A stretch of 64,000 nucleotides of DNA from Herbinix hemicellulosilytica (GTDB taxonomy: Bacteria; Bacillota; Clostridia; Lachnospirales; Lachnospiraceae). The stretch lies in the NCBI RefSeq assembly GCF_002904165.1, contig NZ_CVTD020000016.1, positions 62,001-126,000 of the forward strand. The letters run 5' to 3'. The translations under genes were made by a program, and so were the position numbers. The notes below the pieces were generated by a model. The model did no database searches, had not been told where the DNA came from, and saw nothing but the letters and a program-made list of their open reading frames with translations. Shown here piece after piece: positions 19,145 through 33,821 of the stretch; position 1 is the stretch's first letter, and every line of letters starts with the position of its first letter.

Positions 19145-20950
19145 TTAAATTTCCTCCCTGTTCGGTATTTTGTGGTTTTCTTCGTTTTGGCTTTTTTCAT
19201 AAATTATCGGTAACCATATCGATATATCCGTTCCTTTCTCAGGCTTACTGTCTATATCAATTCGCAAATTACCGTCACTGTACATTTTCAGTCGCAGGTA
19301 AGCGTTAAGTACTCCGGTACTCCTTGCTTCATAAAGCATTTCACTGCTTGCATTGGCTATCATAAATTTTAACTTGGAAAGCCTTTCTTCATCCATGCCT
19401 TTACCGTTATCTGAAATCTCAATCAGCAATTCCTTATCCTGTTTTGTAACGGTTACGGATATTACCCCTTCTTTATCGGTCATTTCCAACCCATGGATGC
19501 AGGCATTTTCAATAAAGGTACTGATAGACAATTTGGGAATCAGGCATTTTTTGCAGTCTTCCATAACATAGTGATAATATTTGATCTTATCACCAAATCT
19601 GTATCTCTGAATATGCATATAATTGTCGATAAATCCCATCTCTTCTTCAACTGTGATATAATCGTCTCCCCAAGTCATGCTCTTTCGGAATAAAACTGCA
19701 AGTTCACCGATTATATCCGCCGTTTCATGTTCATTTTTCAATAAACTTCTCATCCGAATAGATTCTAATGTGTTAAACAAAAAATGGGGATTTACCTGAC
19801 TCTGCATAGCCTTAAGTTCAGCGTTCTTTTTTGCCAGTTCCAGTGCCTGTTTTTCTGCCTGGCCTTTAAAAACTACTTCTATAAGTTCTTTTATCCTTGA
19901 AACCATCAGATTATATCTGTTTATTAACTTGCCAATTTCGTCTTCCCCTTCATTTATATCAATAACTTCAAACTGTTCTTTTTCCACTTTACCCATATAA
20001 GCCGTTATAATTGAAAGCCGCTTACTTATGGATCTGCCCACAAAATATATCAAAACTGTCGGAATAAAAATACTAATAAGTATTATTGGGATTAGCCATT
20101 TATTCATATAGAGAACCGACCAAAAAGGAGTTTCTTCAGCCATTATAAGAATTTCCCATTCATCAAAACCCGTCTGAAAAGTCATAGACATGGTGGCATC
20201 TTCAGTCCTTACGGTGTTTGCAGGTTCAAATTCTTTAAGGCCGCTGGTTCCCGGTAAATTTGAAAACAAAATATAATCCTTATTTCTTACATAAATTTCA
20301 CCTTCTATTTTTTCATTTAGGACATCTTTCAGCATATAGTTATAGTCCAGATCAACTTTAAGTATCTTTAACATTCCCCGTTTATCAAAGTTGTTCAGTT
20401 TTCTTATAACACTTATTGTTCTGCTGGTACCGCTTCCCGGGATATGCTTTTTTCCGCTGTCATAATAAGTATATAAGAAGATATCCTGTCCACTTTCGAT
20501 ATATGCCTTATACCAGTCTTCACTTTTTGCTGTTTCCAGTCTAGCTATACTGCCTCCGTTAACAAGAGTGTCATTATCCGCATAAATTACTATTTTATAC
20601 ATCCTTCCATAGTTATAATTGTAACTTATGCTTTTATATTTGAGCATTTCTGTATATTTTTCATAATAATCAAGATGGCTCTTATAATTATAGGAAAGAA
20701 ATTCATCGAGTTTCTCGTCAGAATAAAGGTTATATGTAAATAAGATACATCCCTCTACGGTGTCGGTAAGATTGACCTTAATCCTCTCCATAGTATTGGT
20801 AAGATCCTTAAGATAGTCTTCCTGATAATTTTGATGAACCGTATACAGAATTATAGAATCGATTAATATGATAGGAATCAGTACACAAAAACAATAAATC
20901 AGGAGTAGTTTAGTCCTGATTTTAAAGTTATTAAAACTAAATCTTTTCAT
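19145..20950 (-). CDS. Sensor histidine kinase (YesM type)
   Basis: Membrane-bound kinase partner of the adjacent YesN-like regulator. Membrane helices near 13-35 and 285-305 flank a ~250-residue extracytoplasmic sensor region of dCache-like layout; HAMP segment follows; His_kinase motif MQSQVNPHFLFNTLESIRM holds the phospho-accepting His; HATPase has ENACIHGLE and DNGKGMDEE. The second ATG at 20950 is preferred because AAGGA is eight bases before it; the first, at 20956, is only two bases away. Typical length near 600. Confidence 0.9.
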   Translation of the reverse strand: MKRFSFNNFKIRTKLLLIYCFCVLIPIILIDSIILYTVHQNYQEDYLKDLTNTMERIKVNLTDTVEGCILFTYNLYSDEKLDEFLSYNYKSHLDYYEKYTEMLKYKSISYNYNYGRMYKIVIYADNDTLVNGGSIARLETAKSEDWYKAYIESGQDIFLYTYYDSGKKHIPGSGTSRTISVIRKLNNFDKRGMLKILKVDLDYNYMLKDVLNEKIEGEIYVRNKDYILFSNLPGTSGLKEFEPANTVRTEDATMSMTFQTGFDEWEILIMAEETPFWSVLYMNKWLIPIILISIFIPTVLIYFVGRSISKRLSIITAYMGKVEKEQFEVIDINEGEDEIGKLINRYNLMVSRIKELIEVVFKGQAEKQALELAKKNAELKAMQSQVNPHFLFNTLESIRMRSLLKNEHETADIIGELAVLFRKSMTWGDDYITVEEEMGFIDNYMHIQRYRFGDKIKYYHYVMEDCKKCLIPKLSISTFIENACIHGLEMTDKEGVISVTVTKQDKELLIEISDNGKGMDEERLSKLKFMIANASSEMLYEARSTGVLNAYLRLKMYSDGNLRIDIDSKPEKGTDISIWLPIIYEKSQNEENHKIPNREEI

Positions 20951-20956
20951 ATCCAT

Positions 20957-21322
20957 TATCCTTTATAAATTACACAACATGATTTACAAGATTAAAAATA
21001 TTTACAACTTATTTTACATAATAAACGATAAAATAGCAAGTTAGTCCCATAAAAAATATATAATTTATTAGCTTTTTTATCAAAGAATTTAAGCAATATT
21101 TTAAACTCATCCATGTTTTTTTTAATACTTTGTTATAATATACACAAATATTTAAATTATATATGCCAAAATTATATAATCGTTATAAAACATGAAGTAT
21201 CATGTAAAAAAGCTCCGGTACCGCCGAAAAAAATGGGTATATAGTACACCTAGCATATATTTCATGTTTTGACATAAAAATGAACTAAATTGTTTACAAA
21301 TTATCTTTATTCTATCCATAAT
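20957..21322. other. Gene-free AT-rich leader region of the kinase gene
   Basis: About 365 bases with no convincing reading frame. It should contain the promoter of the kinase/regulator/importer genes (for example TATAAT-like stretches around 21130), but no clear -35/-10 pair can be assigned. A minus-strand frame of 79 codons here starts inside a terminator hairpin and was not accepted. Confidence 0.5.
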
Positions 21323-21357
21323 TTGAACATAATTTTGGTATATACTACAATCAGAAG

Positions 21358-21446
21358 GTGTTAAATACAATTTTTCACTCTCCTCCTCCCTACTTATATA
21401 TAGATTCAAGGGTGTCTGTAAGCTCAGCTTATCAGACACCCTTTTG
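21358..21446 (+). ncRNA. Candidate small RNA with CU-rich anti-SD tract
   Basis: A promoter-like pair TTGAAC (21323-21328), 17 bp, TACAAT (21346-21351) is followed about 90 bases later by a strong intrinsic terminator: GGGTGTCTG / CAGACACCC around 21410-21441 then TTTT. There is no reading frame with a start site between. The unpaired part contains CACTCTCCTCCTCCC (21376-21390), complementary to Shine-Dalgarno sequences, the pattern of base-pairing regulatory RNAs in Gram-positives. Transcription is inferred. Confidence 0.45.
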
Positions 21447-21604
21447 ATTCATTTACTTTAATTATTTATTCAAATTATTATGAGTATTCCATAAATCTCC
21501 ATTTTAAATTATTTATTTTACTTTTTTATTAATATAATTTAATTTATTTTTATTTTATATATCATTCACAAATTATACACATATTAGTTGTATATTATAA
21601 CCAT

Positions 21605-21708
21605 AGACAGTGTGAATAGCACTTCTACTCCCACCCTATCATACGTTATGGTAAACTAACACCCCTGTTATTTACCGAAAAAGTCGGCCTTAATGGCCGA
21701 CTTTTTTA
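21605..21708 (+). ncRNA. Second candidate small RNA with C-rich loops
   Basis: A TATTAT box at 21593-21598 (weak -35) precedes a segment with CTACTCCCACCC, then a hairpin GGTAAA...TTTACC (21650-21676) whose inner stem TAAC/GTTA presents an ACCCCT loop, then the terminator GTCGGCC/GGCCGAC with T6. C-rich single-stranded loops are typical of Gram-positive regulatory RNAs. No protein frame fits. Could instead be a decayed leader. Lower certainty than the upstream candidate because the promoter is weak. Confidence 0.35.
21678..21708. terminator. Bidirectional terminator downstream of the CorC/HlyC gene
   Basis: AAAAAGTCGGCC, loop TTAAT, GGCCGACTTTTTT. It ends the minus-strand gene whose stop codon is at 21755 and also any plus-strand small RNA. 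Confidence 0.85.
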
Positions 21709-21754
21709 CACTTTTTAAATAAATATTGTTGTTTATTAATAAAATATACAGATT

Positions 21755-23071
21755 CTATCCGACTACTGTTTTTTCCAGGTCTTCATCCATTCTCATCGGA
21801 TTAACAGGCAGCTTGGTTATCCTGACCTGTCCTATCATTTTATTCATAGTTTCAAGAATGTCAAACTGATATCCGCCATACTGCAAAGTAGCCTTTTCAC
21901 CGTCTGCAGGTATTCTGTCAAGAATTGATATTAAAAAGCCGTTTAATGTATCAAAATCTTCATTTTCAATTACTATATCAAGCTCTTCCTTCAGGTCTTC
22001 CAGGCTTATGGAACCTTTAACCACACAGGAATCATCTTCAACTGAAATTATCATCTTTTCTTCCATATCGTATTCATCCTGTATATTACCCACAATTTCT
22101 TCCAGAAAATCCTCCATAGCCACCAGTCCGGCAGTTTGTCCGTATTCATCGACAACTATGGCCATATGAATTTTCTTGGCTTGCATTTCCCGGAACAACA
22201 AATTGACACTTTGGGTTTCGGGTACAAAGTAAGGTTCTCTTGCTATTTCCTGCAGCGTTTTATTATTTTCGTCCCCGGATATGTATGCGGATATTACATC
22301 TTTCAAATGAAGAATTCCGACTATATTGTCCAAATTATCTACATATAATGGATATCTTGAATAGTTTTCCGAAAGCATTAATCTTAGTGCTTCTTTAAGT
22401 GAAATCTCGGCATCGATAGCTACAATACGTTTTTTATGAGTCATTATATCCTGGGCTTTCTTATCATCCAGTTCTATAATATTTGATATCATCTCCGCTT
22501 TCCCGGCATCGATTACACCTTGTTCATGGCCTTCATTTACTATGGAAATAATCTCTTCTTCTATTTCACCTTCATTTTTATCATCAGGATTTATTTTAAA
22601 AATCCTGAATATAAAGTTCATGATAATATCAAACAGAAAGCTGACCGGTGTAAAAATTAAGCATATAAGTTTAATAAGCCCTAATAACCTATAACTTAAC
22701 TTCTCCGAATACTTGGCCGAAATTTTTTCCGGCAACACCACACCGAATACGGTCATGCAAAATACCAAAAAAATTATGAAAATAATACAAGATATATGGT
22801 ATTTTATAGCCGGCAAAATATATTCTTCCGCATAAATCACTGTAATTGCCGATGTGCCGCATAACAATAAAGCCAAAGTATTTTGATATTTTGTGCCTTT
22901 TTCAATAAAAGCCAGAAGGCTTGCTGCTTTTTTATCACCCTTATCTGCTTTCTTTCTTATGCTGCTTTCATTTACATTTTCCAGTGCAGCTTTCATACAG
23001 GATATGATAGCCATAACAAGAATAAGCAGAATAACAGTCGAAATCCCCCATAAAGGACTGTCGCTATCCAT
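21755..23071 (-). CDS. HlyC/CorC family membrane protein (DUF21-CBS-CorC)
   Basis: Likely ion (Mg2+ or Co2+) efflux or homeostasis protein of the CNNM/CorC family. N-terminal DUF21 domain (about 1-190) with four hydrophobic segments, then a CBS pair (about 205-325; MTHKKRIVAIDAEI, YSRYPLYVDNLDNIVGIL, MAIVVDEYGQTAGLVAMED) and a CorC_HlyC domain at the C-terminus (about 340-425). 438 residues is normal. It follows mazF by 27 bases and probably belongs to the long acpS-nnrDE-alr-mazF run. The name haemolysin in databases is historical. Confidence 0.9.
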   Translation of the reverse strand: MDSDSPLWGISTVILLILVMAIISCMKAALENVNESSIRKKADKGDKKAASLLAFIEKGTKYQNTLALLLCGTSAITVIYAEEYILPAIKYHISCIIFIIFLVFCMTVFGVVLPEKISAKYSEKLSYRLLGLIKLICLIFTPVSFLFDIIMNFIFRIFKINPDDKNEGEIEEEIISIVNEGHEQGVIDAGKAEMISNIIELDDKKAQDIMTHKKRIVAIDAEISLKEALRLMLSENYSRYPLYVDNLDNIVGILHLKDVISAYISGDENNKTLQEIAREPYFVPETQSVNLLFREMQAKKIHMAIVVDEYGQTAGLVAMEDFLEEIVGNIQDEYDMEEKMIISVEDDSCVVKGSISLEDLKEELDIVIENEDFDTLNGFLISILDRIPADGEKATLQYGGYQFDILETMNKMIGQVRITKLPVNPMRMDEDLEKTVVG

Positions 23072-32429: not shown

Positions 32430-33821
32430 TTACCATGTGTCAATTCCAAGTTCTTCTTTTACTTTGCTTACTACATCCACCAGTTCCTCGTCGGTAATTA
32501 CGGTAACCCTTCCCTCATCATATTCTTTGTCAACCCAATCTTTAACTTTTGCTACCAGCGGGTGATTTTTATCCAGGGCTTTATCCTCATTAAGCCTATA
32601 ATAGCTGTTTATCCAGTGAGCAATTCCCGCAAGGCCGGAAGTATTTGATATGGCTACTCTGGGCGGGCGTTTAAGGAATTTTTCCGTATCAAAAATATTA
32701 TAAATCTCTTCGTTCTTTAACAAACCGTCGGCATGAATTCCCGCTCTTGTTACGTTAAAATCTCTGCCTACAAAAGGTGTTCTTGAAGGGATCTTATAAC
32801 CTATCTCTTTTTCATAGTACTCTGCTATCTCGGTAATAACCGTGGTATCCATGCCGTCTAAGGTCCCCTTTAACTGGGCATATTCAAATACCATGGCTTC
32901 CAAAGGCGTATTGCCCGTTCTTTCACCTATGCCGAAAAGTGAACAGTTAACAGCTGCGGCACCGTACAGCCATGCGGTGGTAGAATTAACGACAGCCTTA
33001 TAAAAATCATTGTGACCGTGCCACTCCAGCCATTCGGACGGTACACCGGCATGGGCGGTTAAACCGTAAATGATACCCTGAACAGAACGGGGAATTACCG
33101 CTCCTGGGTAATTTACTCCATAACCCATGGTATCGCAGGCTCTTATTTTAACAGGCATATTATATTCCTTGCTTAACCTCATTAATTCATAACAAAACGG
33201 AATTACAAATCCATGAATATCGGATCTTGTGATATCTTCCAGATGACAACGGGGTATAACGCCTGTATCAAGACATTCCCTTACCACATTCAAATAATGG
33301 TCCATGGCTTCCTTTCTTGTCATCTTCATTTTATAAAAAATATGATAGTCAGAACAACTTACCAAAATACCTGTTTCCTTAAGGCCTATTTCTTTAACCA
33401 GTTCAAAGTCTTTTTTACTGGCCCTGATCCATGAGGTAACTTCAGGATATTTGTATCCCTTTTCCAGGCATTTATATACGGCATCCCTGTCTTTCTTGCT
33501 GTATAAGAAAAACTCACACTGGCGTATTATTCCCTTGGGCCCGCCAAGCCGGTGCAGGTACTCATACAATGTCACGATCTGTTCTGTAGTATAGGGAGCT
33601 CTGGATTGCTGCCCGTCTCTGAATGTTGTATCGGTAATGAATATTTCTTTTGGGAAATTGTGTGGTACTATTCTGTCGTTGAATGCAATTTTCGGGACTT
33701 CATCATAAGGAAACAAATTGCGAAACGTATTAGGCTCATCGACATCAACCAGTCTGTAGATGGGCTCTTCCAGCTGAAGCAGGTTATTTTGCGGATTAAT
33801 AGTTACTTTTCTCTGTTCCAT
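32430..33821 (-). CDS. DRE-TIM acyltransferase family enzyme, probable (Re)-citrate synthase
   Basis: Condenses acetyl-CoA with a 2-oxo acid. TIM-barrel enzyme of the homocitrate/isopropylmalate synthase family: ITDTTFRDGQQSR (metal-binding Asp and catalytic Arg), HLEDITRSD, WHGHNDFYKAVVNSTTAW (HxH metal ligands), NCSLFGIGERTGNTPLEAMV and GRDFNVTRAGIHADG. 463 residues. Clostridia that lack the usual citrate synthase use a member of this family, known from Clostridium kluyveri, as (Re)-citrate synthase, and pairing with isocitrate dehydrogenase supports that. Homocitrate synthase or another acyltransferase remains possible. First gene of a three-gene operon with a strong promoter. Confidence 0.8.
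   Translation of the reverse strand: MEQRKVTINPQNNLLQLEEPIYRLVDVDEPNTFRNLFPYDEVPKIAFNDRIVPHNFPKEIFITDTTFRDGQQSRAPYTTEQIVTLYEYLHRLGGPKGIIRQCEFFLYSKKDRDAVYKCLEKGYKYPEVTSWIRASKKDFELVKEIGLKETGILVSCSDYHIFYKMKMTRKEAMDHYLNVVRECLDTGVIPRCHLEDITRSDIHGFVIPFCYELMRLSKEYNMPVKIRACDTMGYGVNYPGAVIPRSVQGIIYGLTAHAGVPSEWLEWHGHNDFYKAVVNSTTAWLYGAAAVNCSLFGIGERTGNTPLEAMVFEYAQLKGTLDGMDTTVITEIAEYYEKEIGYKIPSRTPFVGRDFNVTRAGIHADGLLKNEEIYNIFDTEKFLKRPPRVAISNTSGLAGIAHWINSYYRLNEDKALDKNHPLVAKVKDWVDKEYDEGRVTVITDEELVDVVSKVKEELGIDTW

Follow-up and report, generated by a model that had tools for sequence, protein, structure and literature searches.

Two tandem C-rich candidate small RNAs of Herbinix hemicellulosilytica with a direct-repeat promoter box in common with htrA

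Two plus-strand RNA units in an intergenic gap

The stretch of Herbinix hemicellulosilytica DNA analyzed here (64 kb in length, referred to as the window) contains a 798-bp gap (20957-21754), bordered on its left by a leftward-reading sensor kinase gene (19145-20956) and on its right by a CorC/HlyC-family gene (21755-23071), which has its end towards the gap. Within this gap lie two RNA units, E1 and E2, both on the plus strand and each predicted to be an independent transcription unit (Table 1). An earlier note on this DNA had described two plus-strand terminators with no plus-strand coding gene before them, as well as exposed C-rich tracts; both terminators are present in the sequence, as are the tracts CACTCTCCTCCTCCCTAC in E1 and CTACTCCCACCC in E2 and the hairpin loop ACCCCT.

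The predicted folds of the two units share a common layout, in which an unpaired, C-rich stretch lies between a 5' hairpin and an intrinsic terminator, with an extra hairpin (hairpin 2) ahead of the terminator in E2. None of 200 dinucleotide shuffles equals the fold of either RNA (z scores in Table 1). The first two bases of the E2 tag, a C-rich segment described below, are also able to pair at the base of the 5' hairpin. The E2 terminator possibly also serves the convergent CorC/HlyC-family gene.

Table 1. Features of the two RNA units and their promoters, in window positions (the ends of both RNAs are approximate)
Feature	Position	Strand	Basis
E1 promoter	21315..21346	+	TCCATA-N5-AACATA, 9 bp, -10 TATACT; score 20.2 with the E2-trained matrix
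E1 small RNA	21353..21445	+	start inferred from -10; genus conservation, fold z -5.8
E1 core CACTCTCCTCCTCCCTAC	21376..21393	+	first 4 bases close the 5' hairpin; remainder predicted single-stranded
E1 intrinsic terminator	21408..21445	+	sequence and predicted fold; both-sided changes in relatives
E2 promoter	21565..21596	+	TTCACA-N5-TACACA, 9 bp, -10 TATATT; score 30.5, E2 promoters being the training set
E2 small RNA	21603..21708	+	start inferred from -10; genus and family conservation, fold z -6.8
E2 5' hairpin	21604..21627	+	consensus GAyAGUG...CACUUUC; pairing in 64 distinct sequences
E2 C-rich stretch CTACTCCCACCC	21625-21636	+	read in sequence
E2 tag UACUCCCACCCUAUCAUACG (consensus UACUCCCACCCUAUUAUACG)	21626..21645	+	nearly invariant across the family
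E2 hairpin 2, C-rich loop	21650..21676	+	genus-level; both-sided changes in 6 of 10 pairs
Loop ACCCCT of E2 hairpin 2	21661-21666	+	read in sequence
E2 intrinsic terminator	21677..21707	+	U tracts on both strands

Conservation in the genus and the family

Among 33 other genomes of the same genus, E1 is matched in 22 and E2 in most, in the order E1-E2 and usually with a spacing of 180-410 bp. This recurrence in the same order is well above chance and argues that both are probably real small RNA genes. The segments CACTCTCCTCCTCCCTAC of E1 and UACUCCCACCCUAUUAUACG of E2 hardly vary within the genus, the former showing little or no change among 25 aligned sequences; the terminators differ almost everywhere. 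All five predicted pairs in the conserved part of the E1 terminator stem have both-sided changes among relatives. Because the 5' hairpin of E1 aligns poorly, a consensus fold computed over the full E1 alignment comprises the terminator core only. The E2 copy in the window is slightly atypical, with a hairpin that is one U shorter and AUC instead of AUU in its tag.

Beyond the genus, E2 occurs in other members of the Lachnospiraceae, one of the major families among gut and anaerobic bacteria. An exact-pattern scan of named genomes located E2 in 76 stretches, labeled nearly all as Lachnospiraceae or Clostridiales, with Anaerocolumna, L. phytofermentans, and Velocimicrobium porci among the carriers. 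A covariance search over related genomes, of the kind the earlier note had proposed, recovered E2 in 28 of the 298 Lachnospiraceae genera sampled, with covarying hairpins; since the hairpin loops differ in length, only sequences of equal length went into the model. Across 64 distinct sequences, 95.8% of cells in the 5' hairpin are paired, and three pairs have changed on both sides. Among the covariance-model matches, hairpins with altered sequence retain their pairing (GATAGT/ACTATC and GAGGATA/TATCCTC are examples), and the adjoining tag is unchanged. The tag is nearly invariant across the family in these matches as well as in those from the exact pattern. As the exact-pattern scan demanded the pattern, the invariance of the core in that scan is partly circular; the covariance-model matches represent a fairer test, yet the core also carries most of the weight in the model. 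In 391 genomes drawn from across the class, there were just two matches, both in Lachnospiraceae, and none outside that family, under filters strict enough that diverged members may escape. In many genera, genes for RlmH, CorC/HlyC, MazF, and alanine racemase are found repeatedly next to E2, a pattern suggestive of vertical descent.

The C-rich segments and hairpins, on whose conservation in relatives the earlier note had staked its reading, are thus retained. This conservation also bears on the possibility that E1 and E2 are non-functional, being leftover terminators or fragments of untranslated regions. The terminators could indeed serve neighboring genes, but the RNAs have conserved promoters of their own, cores that do not vary, stems that covary, and conservation throughout the family, which together leave this explanation with next to no credibility.

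The E1 core is narrower in distribution; among the 299 genomes drawn from the family it occurs in 2, in its own genus only, and in none of the 297 other Lachnospiraceae genera. The earlier note had taken the adjacent copies to be related, and the comparison bears this out: only 3 of 2000 shuffles match the similarity between the consensus sequences of the two RNAs, and several E1 copies give weak alignments to the E2 model (E about 0.4 to 8.5). The two RNAs are therefore likely, though not proven, to be paralogs that have diverged. In other genera, three loci contain E2 itself as a tandem duplicate in place of the E1-E2 pair.

The direct-repeat box and its other carriers

In both RNAs, the -35 position is occupied by 11-bp direct repeats located 9 bp upstream of the -10. 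The promoter that the earlier note had assigned to E1 (TTGAAC-17-TACAAT) does not hold: the -10 that is conserved throughout the genus is TATACT (21341-21346), the proposed TACAAT (21346-21351) sits five bases downstream of it, and no -35 hexamer is conserved. The box is found in 25 of 27 genus copies of E1, and alignments place about four further repeat units, also spaced by 11 bp, upstream of it in E1, from about 21271. A position matrix was trained on 76 E2 promoters only, leaving E1 out, and exactly two sites in the 64-kb window score at least 12 with it, namely the promoters of E1 and E2. Upstream of the 53 other genes in the window, the box is absent (best score 4.9).

Five E2 copies in four Velocimicrobium loci are devoid of the direct-repeat box. 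The V. porci genome contains at least seven E2 copies; its box-less copies have promoters of other kinds, and some share a terminator sequence.

A pattern search over relatives revealed one other recurrent location of these repeats, in front of the gene for an HtrA-type protease (Trypsin_2 and PDZ domains). In the genome of H. hemicellulosilytica itself, the E2 promoter (TTCACA-aatta-TACACA-9-TATATT) and the htrA promoter (TTCACA-ttctt-TACACA-9-TATATT) are identical in hexamers and spacings. With the E2 matrix, 27 of 30 htrA-type promoters from 20 genomes score at least 15 (range 15-26); the background estimate in the htrA and pstS scoring is inflated by the inclusion of E2 loci, and the scan of the window genes is the cleaner control. 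By this common box, E1 and E2 would belong to one regulon with htrA and, because they share it, resemble an RNA branch of the response to envelope stress. The same box is also present at a second HtrA-like gene, which follows a MutS2-like gene (L186 2000-2500, G005:C96). A box-like site with a score of 20.4 lies before the gene for a small membrane-anchored protein (L187 2180-2800, G000:C10:150697), a possible regulon member with a gene for a heavy-metal-associated membrane protein nearby.

Of the 11 OmpR-type response regulator genes in the same genome, a single one has the box upstream, with a score of 14.6 against 6.1 for the next best. This gene (G000:C17:4076-4750) is followed by a kinase gene (HAMP, HisKA, and HATPase domains), and each of 19 other genomes tested encodes one close ortholog, 78-94% identical. 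A box score of at least 10 is found for 16 of the 20 regulator orthologs, and four are without the box. Other OmpR-family regulators bind similar 11-bp repeats. From the promoter box alone, we infer that this box-bearing OmpR-family protein is the probable regulator of E1 and E2. We left it without a name because it does not reach the cut-off of any of the NCBIfam equivalogs listed.

The nearest of these equivalogs is PhoB, a match that, though below cut-off, would fit an alternative in which the box belongs to a phosphate regulator (PhoP/PhoB) and the two RNAs to the phosphate regulon. The upstream regions of pstS in the genus also contain 11-bp direct repeats at the same 9-bp distance from the -10, but these repeats are of the TTTACA type. 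We rejected the phosphate regulon on scoring with the E2 matrix, in which 10 of 11 pstS upstream regions remain below 7 and the remaining one, at 13.5, has its site away from the Pho-like repeats, compared with 15-26 for htrA; membership in it is accordingly very improbable. The genus-wide pstS box itself reads TTTACA-N5-TTTACA-N5-TAAACA, 9 bp from a TATC-type -10 (L124-L141).

Possible function and relation to known systems

Comparison between genomes shows the conservation of the RNAs, their predicted structure, and the common promoter box. Building on these, the interpretation that we prefer, at a probability of roughly 0.7, is that E1 and E2 represent tandem, probably paralogous trans-acting small RNAs that are driven by a two-component system together with htrA, and that most likely act through pairing of their tag with ribosome binding sites. 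In this reading, a two-component system of the OmpR family, subject to autoregulation, would bind 11-bp direct repeats of the TTCACA-N5-nnCACA type, situated 9 bp from the -10, and thereby activate its own operon together with HtrA-type envelope proteases and both RNAs. The exposed C-rich tag would then most likely pair with purine-rich ribosome binding sites and reduce the output of a group of proteins, plausibly those that are exported or located in the membrane, with HtrA meanwhile clearing misfolded proteins. Envelope or secretion stress as the presumed signal, and repression of translation through pairing with mRNAs as the presumed action, are proposed because of the resemblance in anatomy to streptococcal csRNAs and the hexamer of the CssR box (both discussed below). 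A conserved RNA family for which a regulator and a co-regulated gene are predicted, and whose tag sequence is defined exactly, makes post-transcriptional control of envelope stress in Lachnospiraceae directly testable.

No target emerged from the searches. E1 pairs more strongly with ribosome binding sites in the window than with gene interiors (mean -10.9 versus -6.4 kcal/mol); shuffled E1 does nearly as well (-10.1), which indicates that this preference is mostly a matter of composition. For E2, pairing with the same ribosome binding sites is equaled by its shuffles (-9.4 against -9.7). In 15 genomes, GGGTGGGA, the strongest E2 complement, shows no enrichment before ATG over the reversed pattern. 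The composition of E1 agrees with the anti-Shine-Dalgarno role put forward in the earlier note, and the description given there of base-pairing RNAs stands as regards tandem related RNAs with unpaired C-rich stretches; a conserved ribosome binding site target was not found. The best target candidate in the window, the gene starting at 33821 on the minus strand, was discarded, as its pairing is mostly much weaker in relatives. This gene encodes an isopropylmalate/homocitrate-type synthase, and in its own genome its ribosome binding site gives strong pairing with each of the two RNAs.

The failure to find GGGTGGGA enrichment and the equal performance of shuffled E2 would also be expected if the stress-induced RNAs bound a protein or the ribosome, as a sponge or decoy, rather than mRNAs, the 20-nt E2 tag then constituting a binding site for protein or rRNA. 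Near-invariance of the tag over its full length across genera, unusual for a simple anti-Shine-Dalgarno tract, points in the same direction. However, the tag is predicted to be unpaired between two hairpins, as in known pairing small RNAs, and E1 contains the purer tract CUCCUCCUCCC, which matches Shine-Dalgarno sequences; on balance, we consider a decoy function unlikely. A broader proposal, which we advance tentatively and at somewhat less than even odds, is that of a Lachnospiraceae-specific small RNA family wired to envelope stress and htrA, evolved apart from the csRNAs, whose 20-nt tag would act on a conserved new partner, either mRNAs of exported proteins or one essential protein or RNA.

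Neither E1 nor E2 has a match in Rfam 15 at the gathering score, with chance-level matches only below it. Several C-rich pairing RNAs of Gram-positive bacteria, such as RsaE/RoxS and LhrC, expose UCCC-type motifs that are thought to mask ribosome binding sites; in addition to lacking an Rfam match, E1 and E2 differ from these in structure, regulator, and host group. The papers that contain the letters of the E2 core are all unrelated, and the small-RNA literature on Lachnospiraceae, C. phytofermentans, and CssRS, searched outside subscription papers and supplements, holds no report of E1 or E2, so that an earlier listing as an unnamed candidate is possible. A start-site map of C. phytofermentans used a 200-bp size cut-off and could miss RNAs this short (PMC5171806). 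The E1/E2 family is thus new to Rfam and previously undescribed in the literature searched.

The CssRS two-component system of Bacillus subtilis presides over HtrA-type proteases, and its canonical CssR box, TTTTCACA, contains the TTCACA of the repeats seen here (PMC6749698). It differs in that a CssR-controlled small RNA was not found in the literature searched on CssRS and small RNAs. The streptococcal csRNAs, in turn, are controlled by CiaRH through a direct-repeat box that they have in common with htrA, and consist of two stem-loops around an anti-Shine-Dalgarno stretch (PMC3091779, PMC8186281). Like the csRNAs, E1 and E2 are several related RNAs, predicted to consist of a hairpin, an unpaired stretch complementary to Shine-Dalgarno sequences, and a terminator hairpin, and predicted to be transcribed from an 11-bp direct-repeat promoter read by an OmpR-family regulator with htrA in its regulon. 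Unlike them, they belong to another bacterial family, have a long and invariant tag in E2, and carry the repeats TTCACA-N5-TACACA (E2) and TCCATA-N5-AACATA (E1) in place of the CiaR repeat TTTAAG-N5-TTTAAG. The wiring proposed for E1 and E2 would thus parallel the CiaRH-csRNA system without evident RNA homology, which suggests that htrA and C-rich small RNAs have come under a common two-component system more than once.
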